Virus record (IMG/VR): IMGVR_UViG_3300027704_000183
Location: 1-22,221 of that record
DNA length: 22,221 bases
Direction: 5' to 3' (one strand)
DNA from: a virus
Made by a program: the position numbers and the translations under genes. Each line of letters begins with the position of its first letter. Positions within the stretch are counted from its first letter, which is position 1. The notes beneath the pieces were generated by a model. The model was not told the origin of the DNA, did not search any database, and worked only from the letters and a program-made list of their open reading frames with translations. This document shows positions 1-22,221 of the stretch, piece by piece.

Positions 1-1570
1 TAAACTGAGCATCTGTGAAAGCATTAGTCTCTGCTTGATAAGCAGTCTTAATCTGAGCGCCAGTTTGATCTGCGGTTGCACTGGCTTCTATACCGTCTAG
101 CTTTGTGCCGTCTGTAGCTACATCTCGCCCATCCACAGTGCCTGAAACTAGTAAATTACCCACAATACTAGCACCAGTGCCACTCGTTTTTATACGAGCC
201 ACATTGTTACAATAAATCTGTACTATGCCGTCTTGGGTGGCATTGAAATATTGCTCACCTGTAGAGCTTAAAAGTTCTAAATTACTACCGTATATTTTTA
301 AGTTACCGCTGCCACTCTCTTTAATAATAGAAGCACCGCCTCCGGCACTTTCATGGCTGATTTCTAAGTCTTGAGAAGCTCCTAGCCTAATTTTAATGTT
401 GTCTGGTAAATCCAAATTCCCTGATAAGCTACCTCCGGCCAGAGGTAATTTAGTACCAATCGAGTTAGCTGTGGTTGTGGCAAAGTTGGGGTCATCGCCC
501 AAAGCAGCCGCTAGTTCATTTAGCGTGTTTAGGGTTGCAGGAGATGAATCAACGAGGGCAGTTATCTGTGTACCCACGTAAGTCTCTGTCGCGTAACCAC
601 TGGGTAGTACATAGTTGTTAGCACTAGCCGCTATACCGTTTAGTTTAGTGTGGTCAGCATCTGTAAAGACATTGGAGTCACTGGCAGCTTCTAAGGCTGT
701 GCGAATCTCTGCGTTTGTTTGGTCTGCTGTAGCACTAGCTTCTATACCATCTAGCTTCGTACCATCGGTAGCGACATCGCGTCCATCGACTGTGCCTGTG
801 ACAGCGATATTACCTGATATGCTTGCGCCAGAACTTGTAGTTGCAATCTTGGGGCTAGGTGAGCCTGCACTGTTGTCATATAGAGTGACTGCACCACCTG
901 AGAGTGCTTGGACATAGTTATTATTAGAGGCATCTTGTAGTGCTAAATTAGTACCTCTAAGCAATAGACTGCCTGCGGAACTCTCAGTAATAATAGAGTT
1001 AGAACCATCGTTAAAAATCTGTAGAGAGTTACTGGTACTACTTCCTAGAATGAGTTTGCCATTCACTGGTAGCCCAAGATTCCCTGTCAAATTTCCACCG
1101 CTCAGAGGCAGTGATGAAGACGCAACACTTTGGGCATTCGCAGCAGAAGTTGCAGCCGCTGCTTGGGAGATACTGGCAGAAGCAGCTTTGGTTGTAGCAG
1201 TTGTAGCACTAGTGGCTGCACTTGCAGACGAGGCTGTCGCTGAAGTCTGTGCTGCAACCGAAGTGACTTTGGATGCTTCACTTGCCGCAGCTGAAGTAGA
1301 GGCATTATTAGCACTTGTTAGTGCGGCAGCTTGGGAAGCAACCGCTGTGACTTTGGCTGCAACCGCTGTGACTTTGGCTGCTTCAGAGGCTGCGGCAGAC
1401 GCTTGGTTAGCCACAATATTGGCACTCGCTGACGTAGCACTTGTTGCTGCTGAAGTGGCCGATGTGGACGCTGCGGTCGCTGAACTGGCTGCGGAAGCAA
1501 CTGAGTTTTCTATCGCATTAGTATTTGTAGTAGAGACACCGTTGTCACTAAAGAAGGATGATTTTGGCAT
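1..1570 (-). CDS. Large tail fibre protein, N-terminal part, cut by left window edge
   Basis: The frame is open from an ATG at 1570 to base 1 (523 codons) with no stop, so the C-terminus lies outside. An AAGGAG at 1582-1587 overlaps the stop of the upstream adaptor gene and sets the start. Residues about 18-150 are almost pure Ala/Ser/Thr with Lys-Val-Thr-Ala-Val repeats, a likely coiled-coil or extended shaft. Two copies of a module of about 220 residues follow, each opening with a LPL(S/A)GG(N/S)L(T/S)GNL motif and closing with VDGRDVATDGTKLDGI and EASATADQT. This motif pair is common in fibre and tail proteins of marine phages. The likely role is host attachment. The attachment N-terminus (MPKSSFFSDNGVSTTN) is short, and its neighbour, the tail adaptor, suggests it is a tail-attached fibre. 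The gene lacks the CCWGG sites abundant in the head genes. Function is inferred from motifs and position. Confidence 0.85.
   Translation of the reverse strand, partial: MPKSSFFSDNGVSTTNTNAIENSVASAASSATAASTSATSAATSATSASANIVANQASAAASEAAKVTAVAAKVTAVASQAAALTSANNASTSAAASEASKVTSVAAQTSATASSASAATSATTATTKAASASISQAAAATSAANAQSVASSSLPLSGGNLTGNLGLPVNGKLILGSSTSNSLQIFNDGSNSIITESSAGSLLLRGTNLALQDASNNNYVQALSGGAVTLYDNSAGSPSPKIATTSSGASISGNIAVTGTVDGRDVATDGTKLDGIEASATADQTNAEIRTALEAASDSNVFTDADHTKLNGIAASANNYVLPSGYATETYVGTQITALVDSSPATLNTLNELAAALGDDPNFATTTANSIGTKLPLAGGSLSGNLDLPDNIKIRLGASQDLEISHESAGGGASIIKESGSGNLKIYGSNLELLSSTGEQYFNATQDGIVQIYCNNVARIKTSGTGASIVGNLLVSGTVDGRDVATDGTKLDGIEASATADQTGAQIKTAYQAETNAFTDAQF
1338..1379 (-). 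repeat. Perfect 21-bp tandem duplication in fibre shaft
   Basis: Two identical 21-bp units (1338-1358 and 1359-1379) encode two copies of KVTAVAA in frame within the Ala/Ser-rich shaft of the left fibre. Identity at DNA level suggests a recent slippage duplication that lengthened the shaft by seven residues, one heptad. Confidence 0.85.
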
Positions 1571-2626: not shown

Positions 2627-3508
2627 TCAAGACAGGCCAGTAATCATTCCAGAATCGGAATAGTTCACATGTTTATTTGAAATTTCTCCTACCACAAAAT
2701 GGGAATCTGCATCTCCGTTTCTGGATAAAAGTGTACGAGTAAACGGACGCAGTACACACTGCTTAAACATGGATGGGTCAACCAAGAATGCGTGAGTTGA
2801 CAATTGACTTCTGTTAATTACAGTTCGTAATTCACCAAATGGCGTAAGAATTACGTCGATAACATTAATCAATGTTTTAGCATCAACTTCACGGTTACGA
2901 CCAGTGGCTGTAGCAAACCCGGCGACAATAGTGGCATCTGCAGGTTTAATCATGAGCACTGTAGGTTCCGAACCATTGGTATAACAGGTCTGATGTAGAG
3001 ATACCAATTTTGCCTCTGTAAGAGCGTCAGTTGAGTTGGAACCTGCATCTATAGTAGTGGAGATTTGCTGAGAGACAGAAGCCATCTTACGAGCAGCACT
3101 TGCACTACCTGCAACAGCAGCCTGGTCAACACCGATTAGCGCCTTTTCTACATCGAGCTTGAGGGCCTTCAGTGTCTTGGCGAGAGCGTAGGCTGTCTCC
3201 TTAGCGCGGCCGTGAGTCTTAACCGCGTCAACAGTCCCGGCAACTTTAAATGCTTCACCGATGATTTGGGTCGTGTTAGAACGGACCGTAGGCTGACCAA
3301 TAGCAGTAGTTGCAGCATCAGCTCCTTCTACAAGCGCATTGACTCCTGCTGCACGAATTTCATCTTGTAAAAATTCGAATGTACGTGCAGATACTTTTTC
3401 AGTCTTAATCATTGACTGGAATGGTGTGGCTGTAGGTGAAATATTAGCAATTGTCTGACTAACGTCCTCCGCGAGACCAATAACTTGATACGATTGTAAT
3501 AAACTCAT
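2627..3508 (-). CDS. Major capsid protein, SU10-like (DUF5309 type, HK97 fold)
   Basis: This 293-residue protein builds the icosahedral shell. The start MSLLQSYQVIGLAEDVSQTI, the ISPTATPFQSMI motif, and the segment FEFLQDEIRAAG..ALVEGADA are typical of DUF5309 capsid proteins such as that of phage SU10. The helical stretch with TNxTQIIGEAFKVAGT and KTHGRAKETAYALAKTLKALKLDVE at residues 75-125 corresponds to the family's conserved central region (the spine helix in an HK97 fold). The C-terminus, with VDPSMFKQCVLRPFTRTLLSR, also fits the family. The length is slightly short for the family. The gene lies directly after the acidic scaffold gene. AAGGTAATTAAC before the ATG gives the ribosome site. 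A hairpin follows the gene, consistent with very high capsid expression. Confidence 0.88.
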   Translation of the reverse strand: MSLLQSYQVIGLAEDVSQTIANISPTATPFQSMIKTEKVSARTFEFLQDEIRAAGVNALVEGADAATTAIGQPTVRSNTTQIIGEAFKVAGTVDAVKTHGRAKETAYALAKTLKALKLDVEKALIGVDQAAVAGSASAARKMASVSQQISTTIDAGSNSTDALTEAKLVSLHQTCYTNGSEPTVLMIKPADATIVAGFATATGRNREVDAKTLINVIDVILTPFGELRTVINRSQLSTHAFLVDPSMFKQCVLRPFTRTLLSRNGDADSHFVVGEISNKHVNYSDSGMITGLS

Positions 3509-3546
3509 TGTTAATTACCTTTTAAAAAATTGAGATTTAGGAAGCA

Positions 3547-4572
3547 TCATTCCCAATTTGACATAATGGTTTCTGCAATATTATCCAGGTCACCACCACT
3601 ACTTCTTAGGCGGTCCACATTCTGCTGCTGACGGTCACGTTTGATGTCAGTTTTAGACGGTGGTGCCTTCTTAGTACGTAGGACCTTTTTCGCTGCTTTG
3701 GCTTTTTTAACGGTAGCTACCTTGGTAGTTTGGTCAAACATACGCGCCTTGTTTAATAACATAAGGACATTTGGGTCAACGTATTGATTGACGGCTTCTT
3801 CTGGTAAACCGTTGGAGATGGCGTACTGGCGAATATCGTTATACATACTATTGTTCCAATCAGGGATTTCTCTCTGCAGAACTTTGACACATTCCTTGGC
3901 TTGTTCTTGCTGAGCCTGGGACTGTTGAGTTTTAACGTATCCGTAGAAGCCATCAGCCTCTTCAGTGAGGAACTTCAGGTCATCTTCGGCTTGCTTAGCT
4001 TCTACCCGGAGCTGAGTAAAATCCTCTGAACTCATGTTTTTAGACGCGACTAGCATGTCTACTTCAGAGTAAGGTTTGTACCGTTCCTGGGCTCGACTAA
4101 TCATAGCCTGTAATGACGCATCAGCTTTTTGCAGCTGCTCATCAGCCATCTTGCGCTGTGATGCTGTTTCTTGAGACTTACGAGTTAAAGATGCTTCTTG
4201 ACCATACAATCGTTTAAGGTCTTTGATGGATGCCTGTTTAGATTCACCATCGACACTGATTTCTACCAGGGTGTCATCGTCAAACTCAACTAGCTCAACT
4301 TCTGTATCTTCCTGGTCTTCTTCTGTGTCTTCCTGGGAATCGTCTTCTTCAGGGTCCTCATCGTCCTCATCGGATTCTAAGTCTTCCGTATCTTCAGTTT
4401 CTTCAGCGTCATCTACATCTGTCTCTTCAGTAGATTCTTCTGTTGCCTCCTCGTCATCTTCGGATACCGTTTCCGGGTCCACCCAATTTCCTAGTATGGC
4501 TTCTGCAGCATCGTCTAACGTGAGTGCTGCTTGCGAGTTGGAATCGTTTTCGACGTTATCAATAACTGACAT
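3547..4572 (-). CDS. Capsid scaffolding protein
   Basis: This 341-residue, highly charged protein directs shell assembly and is expelled before or during DNA packaging. Residues 38-99 are an almost unbroken Asp/Glu run. Residues 110-235 are helical with coiled-coil character (Gln/Glu/Lys/Ala-rich). Residues 285-320 are strongly basic (KKAKAAKKVLRTKK and DIKRDRQQQ), matching the basic C-terminal coat-binding region known in T7 and P22 scaffolds. A short motif of the form AExIxxNW occurs near both ends (residues 23-30 and 333-340). The position between portal and capsid genes is diagnostic. The start at 4572 has GAGGAA upstream, and the preceding gene stops 4 bases before it. No protease motif is seen, so it is unlikely to be a self-cleaving scaffold-protease. 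Confidence 0.83.
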   Translation of the reverse strand: MSVIDNVENDSNSQAALTLDDAAEAILGNWVDPETVSEDDEEATEESTEETDVDDAEETEDTEDLESDEDDEDPEEDDSQEDTEEDQEDTEVELVEFDDDTLVEISVDGESKQASIKDLKRLYGQEASLTRKSQETASQRKMADEQLQKADASLQAMISRAQERYKPYSEVDMLVASKNMSSEDFTQLRVEAKQAEDDLKFLTEEADGFYGYVKTQQSQAQQEQAKECVKVLQREIPDWNNSMYNDIRQYAISNGLPEEAVNQYVDPNVLMLLNKARMFDQTTKVATVKKAKAAKKVLRTKKAPPSKTDIKRDRQQQNVDRLRSSGGDLDNIAETIMSNWE

Positions 4573-20788: not shown

Positions 20789-21559
20789 TTATGCTGTACG
20801 TTTCCACATATAGACAACTACATAGGGCTGTAAGTTATTGTGGGCAGTACCACCCCCAGTAGCCGCTGTAGTACCAGAAGCACTTGCAGATAATTCACCA
20901 CCGCCTGTGCGGTTGTTAGAACCAGAGGTTGTCAAGTGGGCAGTAAAGCCGTGTGTATGACTAGGGATTTCATCTATAGATAAGGTGTGGGTCTTAGCGC
21001 CACCTAACAGAACAGAACTACCGTCACCCGATGGAGCAACAAAGTCCGTATCTGGTTCAGCTGCATCATCATGTCCTACTAAGACTCTACCTTGTCCAAA
21101 GGATACCCAAGTACCACCAAAGACTGTTTGAGGACTCCCACTAGTAATAGCCGTATAGATAGCCCCTACCGGATAAATAGAGTCAAGAGCCGCAGATTTC
21201 ACTAAGGTCCATACCTCTAAAGCAGTAATGCCTGTAGCTAACACAGGAGTAACTTCACCCTCACTATCTGTAAAAGCAGTGATAGCAGATGCTACAGGTG
21301 TAGTGATACCAATGAGTGTCTTTACTTTGTCTGCTGTCATGCCTGTGTTAAAGGTGACATTGGTGCCATCAGAAACTAGTGCAGTCTTCTTGTTTAACTC
21401 AGCAGCTGACAAAGTCACTGGACCAGTAAGGCCTGGCCAAGTAGCTTTAACAGTAGACTTAATAAGACGTAAATGTTCGTCAGCCTGAGAGAGTGCGTCT
21501 GTAGCCGCAGGGTTAGCTGCATTGAGGCTATCAATGTAGGTGCCTGTTTCAAGTGCCAT
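20789..21559 (-). CDS. Tail-collar-type fibre tip protein
   Basis: This 256-residue protein has an N-terminal module (1-60, TGTYIDSLNAANPAATDALSQ then ADEHLRLIKSTVKATWPGLTG) that in other marine phage proteins precedes collar domains. Residues 128-170 (SIYPVGAIYTAITSGSPQTV, then GGTWVSFGQGRVLVGHDD) match the phage tail collar pattern. A SHTHG motif (200-204), as in metal-binding HxH motifs of T4 gp37-type tips, is followed by a Gly/Ser/Thr-rich loop and the ending AHNNLQPYVVVYMWKRTA, which is common in such proteins. It is likely a receptor-binding or baseplate tip. It is the first gene of the operon, with CAGGA before the ATG at 21559. Confidence 0.85.
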   Translation of the reverse strand: MALETGTYIDSLNAANPAATDALSQADEHLRLIKSTVKATWPGLTGPVTLSAAELNKKTALVSDGTNVTFNTGMTADKVKTLIGITTPVASAITAFTDSEGEVTPVLATGITALEVWTLVKSAALDSIYPVGAIYTAITSGSPQTVFGGTWVSFGQGRVLVGHDDAAEPDTDFVAPSGDGSSVLLGGAKTHTLSIDEIPSHTHGFTAHLTTSGSNNRTGGGELSASASGTTAATGGGTAHNNLQPYVVVYMWKRTA

Positions 21560-21584: not shown

Positions 21585-21610
21585 TAGAGTTAACTAGAGT
21601 TAACTAGAGT
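21585..21610. repeat. 10-bp tandem repeat TAGAGTTAAC, 2.6 copies
   Basis: TAGAGTTAAC occurs at 21585-21594 and 21595-21604, followed by TAGAGT at 21605-21610. It lies about 25 bases upstream of the first gene of the operon and includes GTTAAC palindromes, so it could be a protein-binding or leader element. Confidence 0.85.
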
Positions 21611-21630: not shown

Positions 21631-21725
21631 TCAAAGAAGGCAGACAACAACAACAACAAGTCTACCCTTTACCCTTGTTTTTGAAGTCCATATACCATTA
21701 GACCCATTGGGGGTCATTTAGATAG

Positions 21726-21739
21726 CCAGGAGTCCCTGG
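21726..21739. repeat. CCAGG-AGTC-CCTGG inverted repeat
   Basis: A perfect 5-bp stem with a 4-base loop is formed by two CCWGG sites, the same design as the CCTGG-GTAA-CCAGG hairpin downstream of the capsid gene. Confidence 0.6.
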
Positions 21740-21790
21740 AATCATAGACATTTATCCATATAGGCTCTGTGTCTCAGGTACTAAGGGCGA

Positions 21791-21805
21791 TCGATATGTT
21801 ATCGA
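21791..21805. promoter_or_regulatory. TCGATA-TGT-TATCGA dyad, operator-like
   Basis: A perfect 6-bp inverted repeat with a 3-base spacer. The size suits a binding site for a small dimeric repressor, but no partner gene is in the window. One of the few GATC sites of the window lies directly beside it (21789-21792). Confidence 0.4.
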
Positions 21806-21909
21806 CCTCCATAAGATGTGTTCGGTACCTGTCACATAGGACATTTGTGACTTATAGAAAAATATATTGGATTAAGGGTCTTTCTTTTGGTTGAAAATAG
21901 GGATGTAAA

Positions 21910-22020
21910 CCCAAGTCCACCCAAGCTCCCTCAAGTCCTCTCAAGTCCACCCTAAGCTCACCTAAGCTATCCCAGGTCAACCCAGGTAATCCCAGGTCAA
22001 CCCAGATAAACTCAGGCAGC
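21910..22020. repeat. Array of eleven YCHARG units spaced one helical turn apart
   Basis: CCCAAG/CTCAAG/CCTAAG/CCCAGG-type cores start at 21910, 21920, 21930, 21940, about 21951, 21961, 21971, 21981, 21991, 22001 and 22011. The spacing is 10 bp except for a single base inserted at the fifth unit. Units fall into a CAAG group, a TAAG group and a CAGG group. One-turn spacing places all cores on one face of the helix, as in iteron or cooperative protein-binding arrays. Sequence outside the cores varies. Confidence 0.85.
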
Positions 22021-22036
22021 AAGTGTGTACATAAGA

Positions 22037-22096
22037 CTCAGAAGTCCACCAGGTTACGATTGAGGGGAGACCGATGTCACCCGGTGGACTACTGAG
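22037..22096. repeat. Imperfect 17-bp inverted repeat with 26-base loop
   Basis: The left arm 22037-22053 (CTCAG-A-AGTCCACC-A-GG) and right arm 22080-22096 pair at 15 of 17 positions. Its AGTCCACC core also occurs in two units of the neighbouring array (21913-21921 and 21943-21951), and GGTGGAC recurs at 22180-22186. It could be a cruciform, a dimer-binding site or an RNA stem. Confidence 0.75.
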
Positions 22097-22124: not shown

Positions 22125-22221
22125 AGTGTATACATATGAAGCACACTGCGACGGTAGAACCCCACTGGTATCTCTAAAGGGTGGACACAATAGAATTAGT
22201 GTTACTTACAGTATCTATAAG

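Follow-up and report, generated by a model that had tools for sequence, protein, structure and literature searches.

A phased short-repeat array in the late leader of an uncultured group of marine podoviruses

The window, the whole 22,221-base virus record, is a fragment of a marine podovirus genome. Its structural genes all run leftward and encode the collar, a virion protein, the tail fiber, an ejection protein, a 1564-aa protein, TerL, portal, scaffold, capsid, and tail. The first late gene encodes a tail collar-like protein of 256 aa (minus strand, 20789-21559). Longer contigs of relatives extend beyond the window end and harbor genes for an integrase, a T7-like RNA polymerase (RNAP), a T7-type SSB, endonuclease I, a primase-helicase, DNA polymerase A (family A), and a 5'-3' exonuclease. 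These replication-side genes share one direction and run up to the intergenic region in which a short-repeat array is located. Pfam searches place the main replication proteins in a T7-type module, and among cultured phages the DNA polymerase gene is closest to those of T7-like phages of Roseobacter, Pelagibacter, and Pseudomonas. Venkman and LUZ24-like phages carry relatives of the portal, capsid, and virion proteins. The family genome is a mosaic in which T7-like replication, RNA polymerase, and an integrase are joined to a Venkman/LUZ24-like virion module. A close isolate of the window phage was not found in the phage collection, nor were prophages of the family found in sequenced species.

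The presence of an integrase gene next to a tRNA-like sequence is suggestive of a temperate phage. The tRNA-like sequence contains a CAT anticodon region and lies upstream of the integrase (L197 15139-15170 in G001; L198 3816-3847 in G002; also L200, L209, and L210), where it probably represents attP. A 48-base pattern derived from this sequence occurs mostly in the marine gammaproteobacterial groups OM60/NOR5 (Halieaceae, Luminiphilus) and SAR92/Porticoccaceae, and these sequence matches suggest both groups as hosts. The repeat array was also considered as attP and rejected; it is the tRNA-like sequence that adjoins the integrase, about 11 kb off in G001. Several near-full-length contigs of the family start or stop in the same tail-fiber gene region (window 1-1570 and the ends of G001, G002, G005, and G007), probably because fiber genes vary within populations.

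The predicted late promoter of a phage T7-like RNA polymerase, TCTATTGTGTCCACCCTTTAGAGATA, lies on the minus strand at 22169-22194, and its assignment is based on recurrence of the motif in G001 and a changed motif in G002. The motif TCTATTGTGTCCACCC has one exact occurrence in the window, at 22194 on the minus strand. In G001, the exact motif precedes the RNAP gene, the SSB gene, and the late genes, and a variant precedes the integrase; in G002, the corresponding sites carry a different motif, AACTTCTGTCGTCCTA. Repetition at transcription units combined with change between phages is the behavior expected of a phage RNA polymerase promoter. No second late promoter was seen in the structural half of G001, and the array has the one late promoter detected on its upstream side and the first late gene (collar) on its downstream side. 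Since the sole detected late promoter is upstream, the array would be transcribed leader DNA of a single late transcript, starting about 150 bp past the presumed start. Neither host sigma-70 promoters nor intrinsic terminators were found in the leader. The window leader RNA folds far better than its shuffles (z -6.2), probably for the most part due to one long hairpin. RNAalifold retains just one stem as the consensus structure of the whole leader, Rfam gives no credible match, and a known RNA or tRNA in the leader was rejected for want of any match.

The array spans 21909-22017 on the minus strand and consists of eleven 10-bp units that read (G/A)(A/G)C(T/C)T(G/A)(G/A)G(T/G) on the late-coding strand. 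On the plus strand, the eleven units at 21910-22016 take the form C-Y-Y-A-R-R and lie 10 bp apart with a single 11-bp step, the steps being, in order, 10, 10, 10, 11, 10, 10, 10, 10, 10, and 10. Units 1-4 are CCCAAG at 21910 and 21920 and CTCAAG at 21930 and 21940; units 5-6 are CCTAAG at 21951 and 21961; units 7-11 are CCCAGG at 21971, 21981, and 21991, CCCAGA at 22001, and CTCAGG at 22011. The eleven units, 10-bp spacing, and one 1-bp phase shift described in the initial annotation can thus be read directly, the shift being the lone 11-bp step, and its three core classes (CAAG, TAAG, CAGG) occur in blocks as claimed. The motif YCHARG fits 7 of the 11 units as written and needs correction; the repeat itself stands, with CYYARR fitting all 11. 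The identity of the array at a lag of 10 is 73 of 110 bp, against a maximum of 52 over lags of 7-15 when the whole window was shuffled 100 times with dinucleotides preserved, and TRF likewise calls the array. No second comparable chain of phased units is present in the window. On the minus strand, 21971-22016 displays a G-quadruplex-type pattern of four GGG runs with 7 bases between them. Within the window the GGG triplets are spaced at 10-nt steps, but in many relatives GTG or GAG takes their place; the pattern is therefore not conserved, and a G-quadruplex was rejected.

The leaders of relatives were searched with a unit model that was seeded with the observed consensus and built from 24 relatives. 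The model reads G-R-C-T-T-G-G-G-T-K on the late-coding strand, and its C3 and G8 are nearly invariant. At least four phased units are present in 24 of 40 distinct relatives' leaders, 7 of these 24 lying outside the training set of the model, compared with 1 of 704 background windows of the same contigs and 2 of 40 leaders on the opposite strand. The relatives are metagenome contigs held distinct at a threshold of 6% difference, and sister lineages are therefore still counted separately. Unit steps of 10 bp predominate (106), followed by 11 (30), 12 (21), 13 (10), and 9 bp (9); the mean of these short steps is about 10.5 over the range of 9-13. The core varies among CTTGGGT, CTTAGGT, CTTGTGT, CTAAGGT, CTGAGGT, CTATGGT, and CTCTGGT, and the orientation of the array is constant while these letters drift. 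The initial annotation had looked to related phages for the same spacing with changed bases, and had regarded their absence as decisive against the array; the 10-bp spacing persists and the bases change. Since many relatives carry the array at the equivalent position despite altered bases, it represents a real control element, a cis-acting piece of phage DNA and neither a chance nor a coding repeat.

The number of units ranges from 2 to 14 among relatives, with gain or loss of single units or dimers. Four leaders (L085-L088) carry the window array minus exactly one unit, L105 and L266 have unequal numbers of 21-bp dimers, and the arrays of L118 and L182 consist largely of 20-bp dimers. Growth by local duplication, proposed earlier from the block structure, is borne out by the near-identical relatives that lack one 10-bp unit and by the 21-bp dimer present two or three times in sister phages. 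In the AT-rich lineage G005/G006, the array is absent, and the promoter and most of the downstream block are kept. The downstream edge of the array lies 229-253 bp before a conserved (TTG)n tract in 20 of 24 leaders, usually at about 240 bp, while the upstream edge and the distance to the promoter vary widely. A fixed downstream edge combined with variable promoter distance and unit number indicates that the array goes with the downstream block and not with the promoter. Copy-number differences between close relatives and absence from some lineages are also what a neutral or selfish slippage product would display, namely a short satellite that grows and shrinks without serving any purpose. Such a satellite is a very improbable explanation, as orientation and downstream edge are fixed and the spacing and the C and G core positions persist while other letters change.

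The array is part of a composite region, with a C-loop hairpin upstream and a compensatorily changing GAT-N5-ATC downstream. The long hairpin lies on the minus strand at 22037-22096 (arms 22037-22057/22076-22096) and has the C-rich apical loop CTCCCCTC. Long hairpins are present upstream of the array in about 27 of 44 leaders, with a C-rich apical loop such as CTCCCCT that is conserved among relatives and a stem sequence that differs between lineages. Nearly all of the leader hairpins fold below -27 kcal/mol per 100 nt, compared with 27 of 479 background sites at which a fold of at most -25 kcal/mol leaves such a C-rich motif unpaired, a contrast that is somewhat inflated because the best site per leader is set against single sites. 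By eye, the C-rich loop could pair with the G-rich units in some relatives.

The downstream block begins at the edge of the array with a junction box (21891-21902, minus strand; coding strand CCCTATTTTCAA), for which the family consensus is CCC(N)ATTTgt. An AT-rich tract follows at 21857-21868 on the minus strand (coding strand AATATATTTTTC; family AATAAATTT). The inverted repeat GGTCGAT-AACAT-ATCGATC is located at 21789-21807, within a longer pair of arms at 21781-21796/21800-21815, and takes the form GAT-N5-ATC, with compensatory changes, in the family. Almost all of 50 leaders contain GAT-N5-ATC at a position that hardly varies, and C-G, G-C, and T-A exchange at pairs 4 and 5. The search took the best-pairing site in a 60-base range, which favors pairing; the constant distance and core speak independently for the inverted repeat. 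Further along the minus strand are a short inverted repeat that is variable among relatives (CCAGGGACTCCTGG, 21726-21739), another that is present in part of the family (GACCCCCAATGGGTC, 21701-21715), a conserved TTCAAAAACAAGGGTAAAGGGT at 21664-21685 (the TTCAAAA box), and the (TTG)n tract before the first late gene (21645-21660), which serves as the distance anchor. The initial annotation had reported much of this layout correctly from the window: an AT-rich patch beside the array (84% A+T over 25 bp from about 21851), inverted repeats on both flanks, and a position upstream of the late operon, every structural gene running leftward from 21559. It had included neither the phage-RNAP promoter just upstream, nor the conservation of the hairpin loop, nor the probable status of the array as transcribed leader.

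The layout had earlier been compared with an iteron-type origin, a cooperative regulator array, or a packaging array; the layout holds, and the present evidence gives no clean choice among these functions. Cooperative regulator arrays with direct repeats of about 10-11 bp include the OmpR/PhoB boxes and the P2 Cox boxes, and the window array resembles them in its directional half-sites about one helical turn apart and its variable copy number. It differs from them in lying downstream of a single-subunit RNAP promoter, in having up to 14 units, and in that no regulator was found. Whereas a cooperative regulator would call for sites at a fixed distance close to or overlapping the promoter, the array lies ~150 bp downstream, and the distance varies. 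A roadblock or leader element is compatible with variable promoter distance, and control of the late operon is a real, if doubtful, possibility: the array and the downstream inverted repeat would be regulator sites, in DNA or nascent RNA, that block or meter phage-RNAP transcription, for example to keep late genes silent in lysogeny. The array always lies between the sole late promoter found and the first late gene, GAT-N5-ATC combines constant spacing with compensatory changes as in an operator or hairpin, the leader RNA is predicted to fold strongly, and the integrase and adjacent tRNA-like sequence suggest a temperate phage. Against this, no regulator gene was identified, the consensus fold is reduced to a single stem, and a simple operator would not need a leader that extends over several hundred bases and whose array some lineages lack.

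Iteron origins, such as those of the plasmid RepA type, lambda O, and the P4 decamers, combine tandem direct repeats with an adjacent AT-rich tract and inverted repeats. The same elements adjoin one another here, in the longest non-coding stretch seen between G001 genes, and an initiator could bind the array and open the adjoining AT-rich tract. The resemblance is limited by the degeneracy of the units, the loss of the array in a lineage that survives, and the T7-type replisome, which to our knowledge needs no iteron-binding initiator; no initiator gene was recognized by Pfam among the main replication proteins. A raw GC-skew peak near the array vanishes at fourfold sites and therefore reflects protein composition, and fourfold-site skew displays no sign change or inflection at the array. 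An origin called from skew was rejected accordingly, and an iteron-type origin is unlikely. The T7 primary origin, with the phi1.1A/B promoters and an AT-rich tract, likewise places a phage-RNAP promoter before a non-coding region with an AT tract; the window region has in addition an array and hairpins that this T7 site lacks.

Genome ends provide a further comparison, as an array for packaging or at a concatemer junction could mark fixed ends. Similar repeats occur near T7-like ends, and contig ends occur more often ahead of the late genes than in the vicinity of TerL. These ends are scattered, and contigs read through the array or break inside it, with no DTR, fixed terminus, or common break point detected. 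In sample 3300009505, one contig ends inside the array and another begins inside it, so the repeats can explain much of the excess of contig ends without a physical end. The GATATC end site of phage tf resembles the inverted repeat, and a terminase shared with tf was considered and rejected; the portal is related to that of this DTR phage, but TerL is unrelated to its counterpart. The data thus lend no support to a fixed genome terminus within the array, and a packaging or concatemer-junction array that marks fixed ends is quite improbable.

A close analog in layout is found in the short-repeat arrays at T7-like ends. The T7 SRL and SRR arrays consist of CCTAAAG at 13-bp spacing adjoining the T7 terminal repeat, compared with 10-bp steps here. 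In both systems, short direct elements recur roughly once per helical turn along some 100-170 bp of non-coding DNA beside phage-RNAP promoters (phiOL/phiOR in T7), in a phage with a T7-type replication system. They differ in consensus and strand; the T7 arrays flank a known terminal repeat, and the virion module here is not T7-like. By eye, the first 240 bp of KP32 contain a CCTGAGG series, and the region between the maturase/lysozyme and early genes of Eistla contains five CTTAGG elements. In the terminal repeats of thirteen phages, the unit model is enriched most strongly in T7 and weakly in SP6, KP32, and LUZ100, and displays no enrichment on either strand in 9 of the 13. Direct homology to T7 terminal repeats, suggested by eye, was not upheld across the thirteen phages; as enrichment is not general, the T7 link is one of analogy. 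In the literature searched, the earlier statement that no array of this exact type has been described holds, and no experiments on this phage family were found.

Similar arrays with 10-12 bp steps lie upstream of packaging genes in L215 (1-300, reverse strand), L228 (about 970-1150), and L238 (about 3450-4040). L215 and L228 have a LUZ24-like late gene order, and their arrays are near the position where tf, with the same order, has its terminal repeat. All three represent other phage types, in which packaging genes open the late operon.

We tentatively favor a protein-loading array in a replication/maturation control region, with a layout analogous to the short-repeat arrays of T7 ends. A protein would load cooperatively along one face of the helix, starting from the junction end. 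The array, C-loop hairpin, AT tract, and downstream inverted repeat would together form the control region, in which transcription by the phage polymerase may serve to initiate DNA synthesis or the processing of replicated DNA. The excess of arrays in leaders over background, the downstream edge that stays fixed while promoter distance varies, the T7-like replication module, and the short repeats of T7, Eistla, KP32, L215, and L228 argue for this reading. The lack of a DTR or fixed terminus, a TerL unrelated to that of tf, a T7 link that is an analogy, flat fourfold GC skew, and the missing array of G005/G006 argue against it. Late-operon control is nearly as likely, and what probability remains falls to an iteron origin, a packaging junction, a neutral satellite, or readings yet unconceived. 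A new composite control element is also conceivable, though with low probability. Its hairpin with a free stem and fixed C-rich loop, its expanding and contracting G-rich phased array, and its compensating inverted repeat would act in nascent RNA or as an RNA-DNA hybrid, converting transcription by the phage RNAP into priming of replication or processing of DNA.

A broad group of uncultured marine phages shares this unannotated, highly organized leader of about 500-600 bases. The family provides dozens of natural variants, in which the letters or unit counts of an analogous array differ or the array is even lost. These variants sit at a defined spot beside a single late promoter, which makes the role of short-repeat arrays directly testable. 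A second small tandem repeat, TAGAGTTAAC in 2.6 copies, is present just ahead of the collar gene (window 21585-21610). In the leaders of one clade (L089-L093 and L113), an ORF of ~50-60 codons with a TTG start and a GAGGAG ribosome site follows (TTG)n, and would be the first late gene there.
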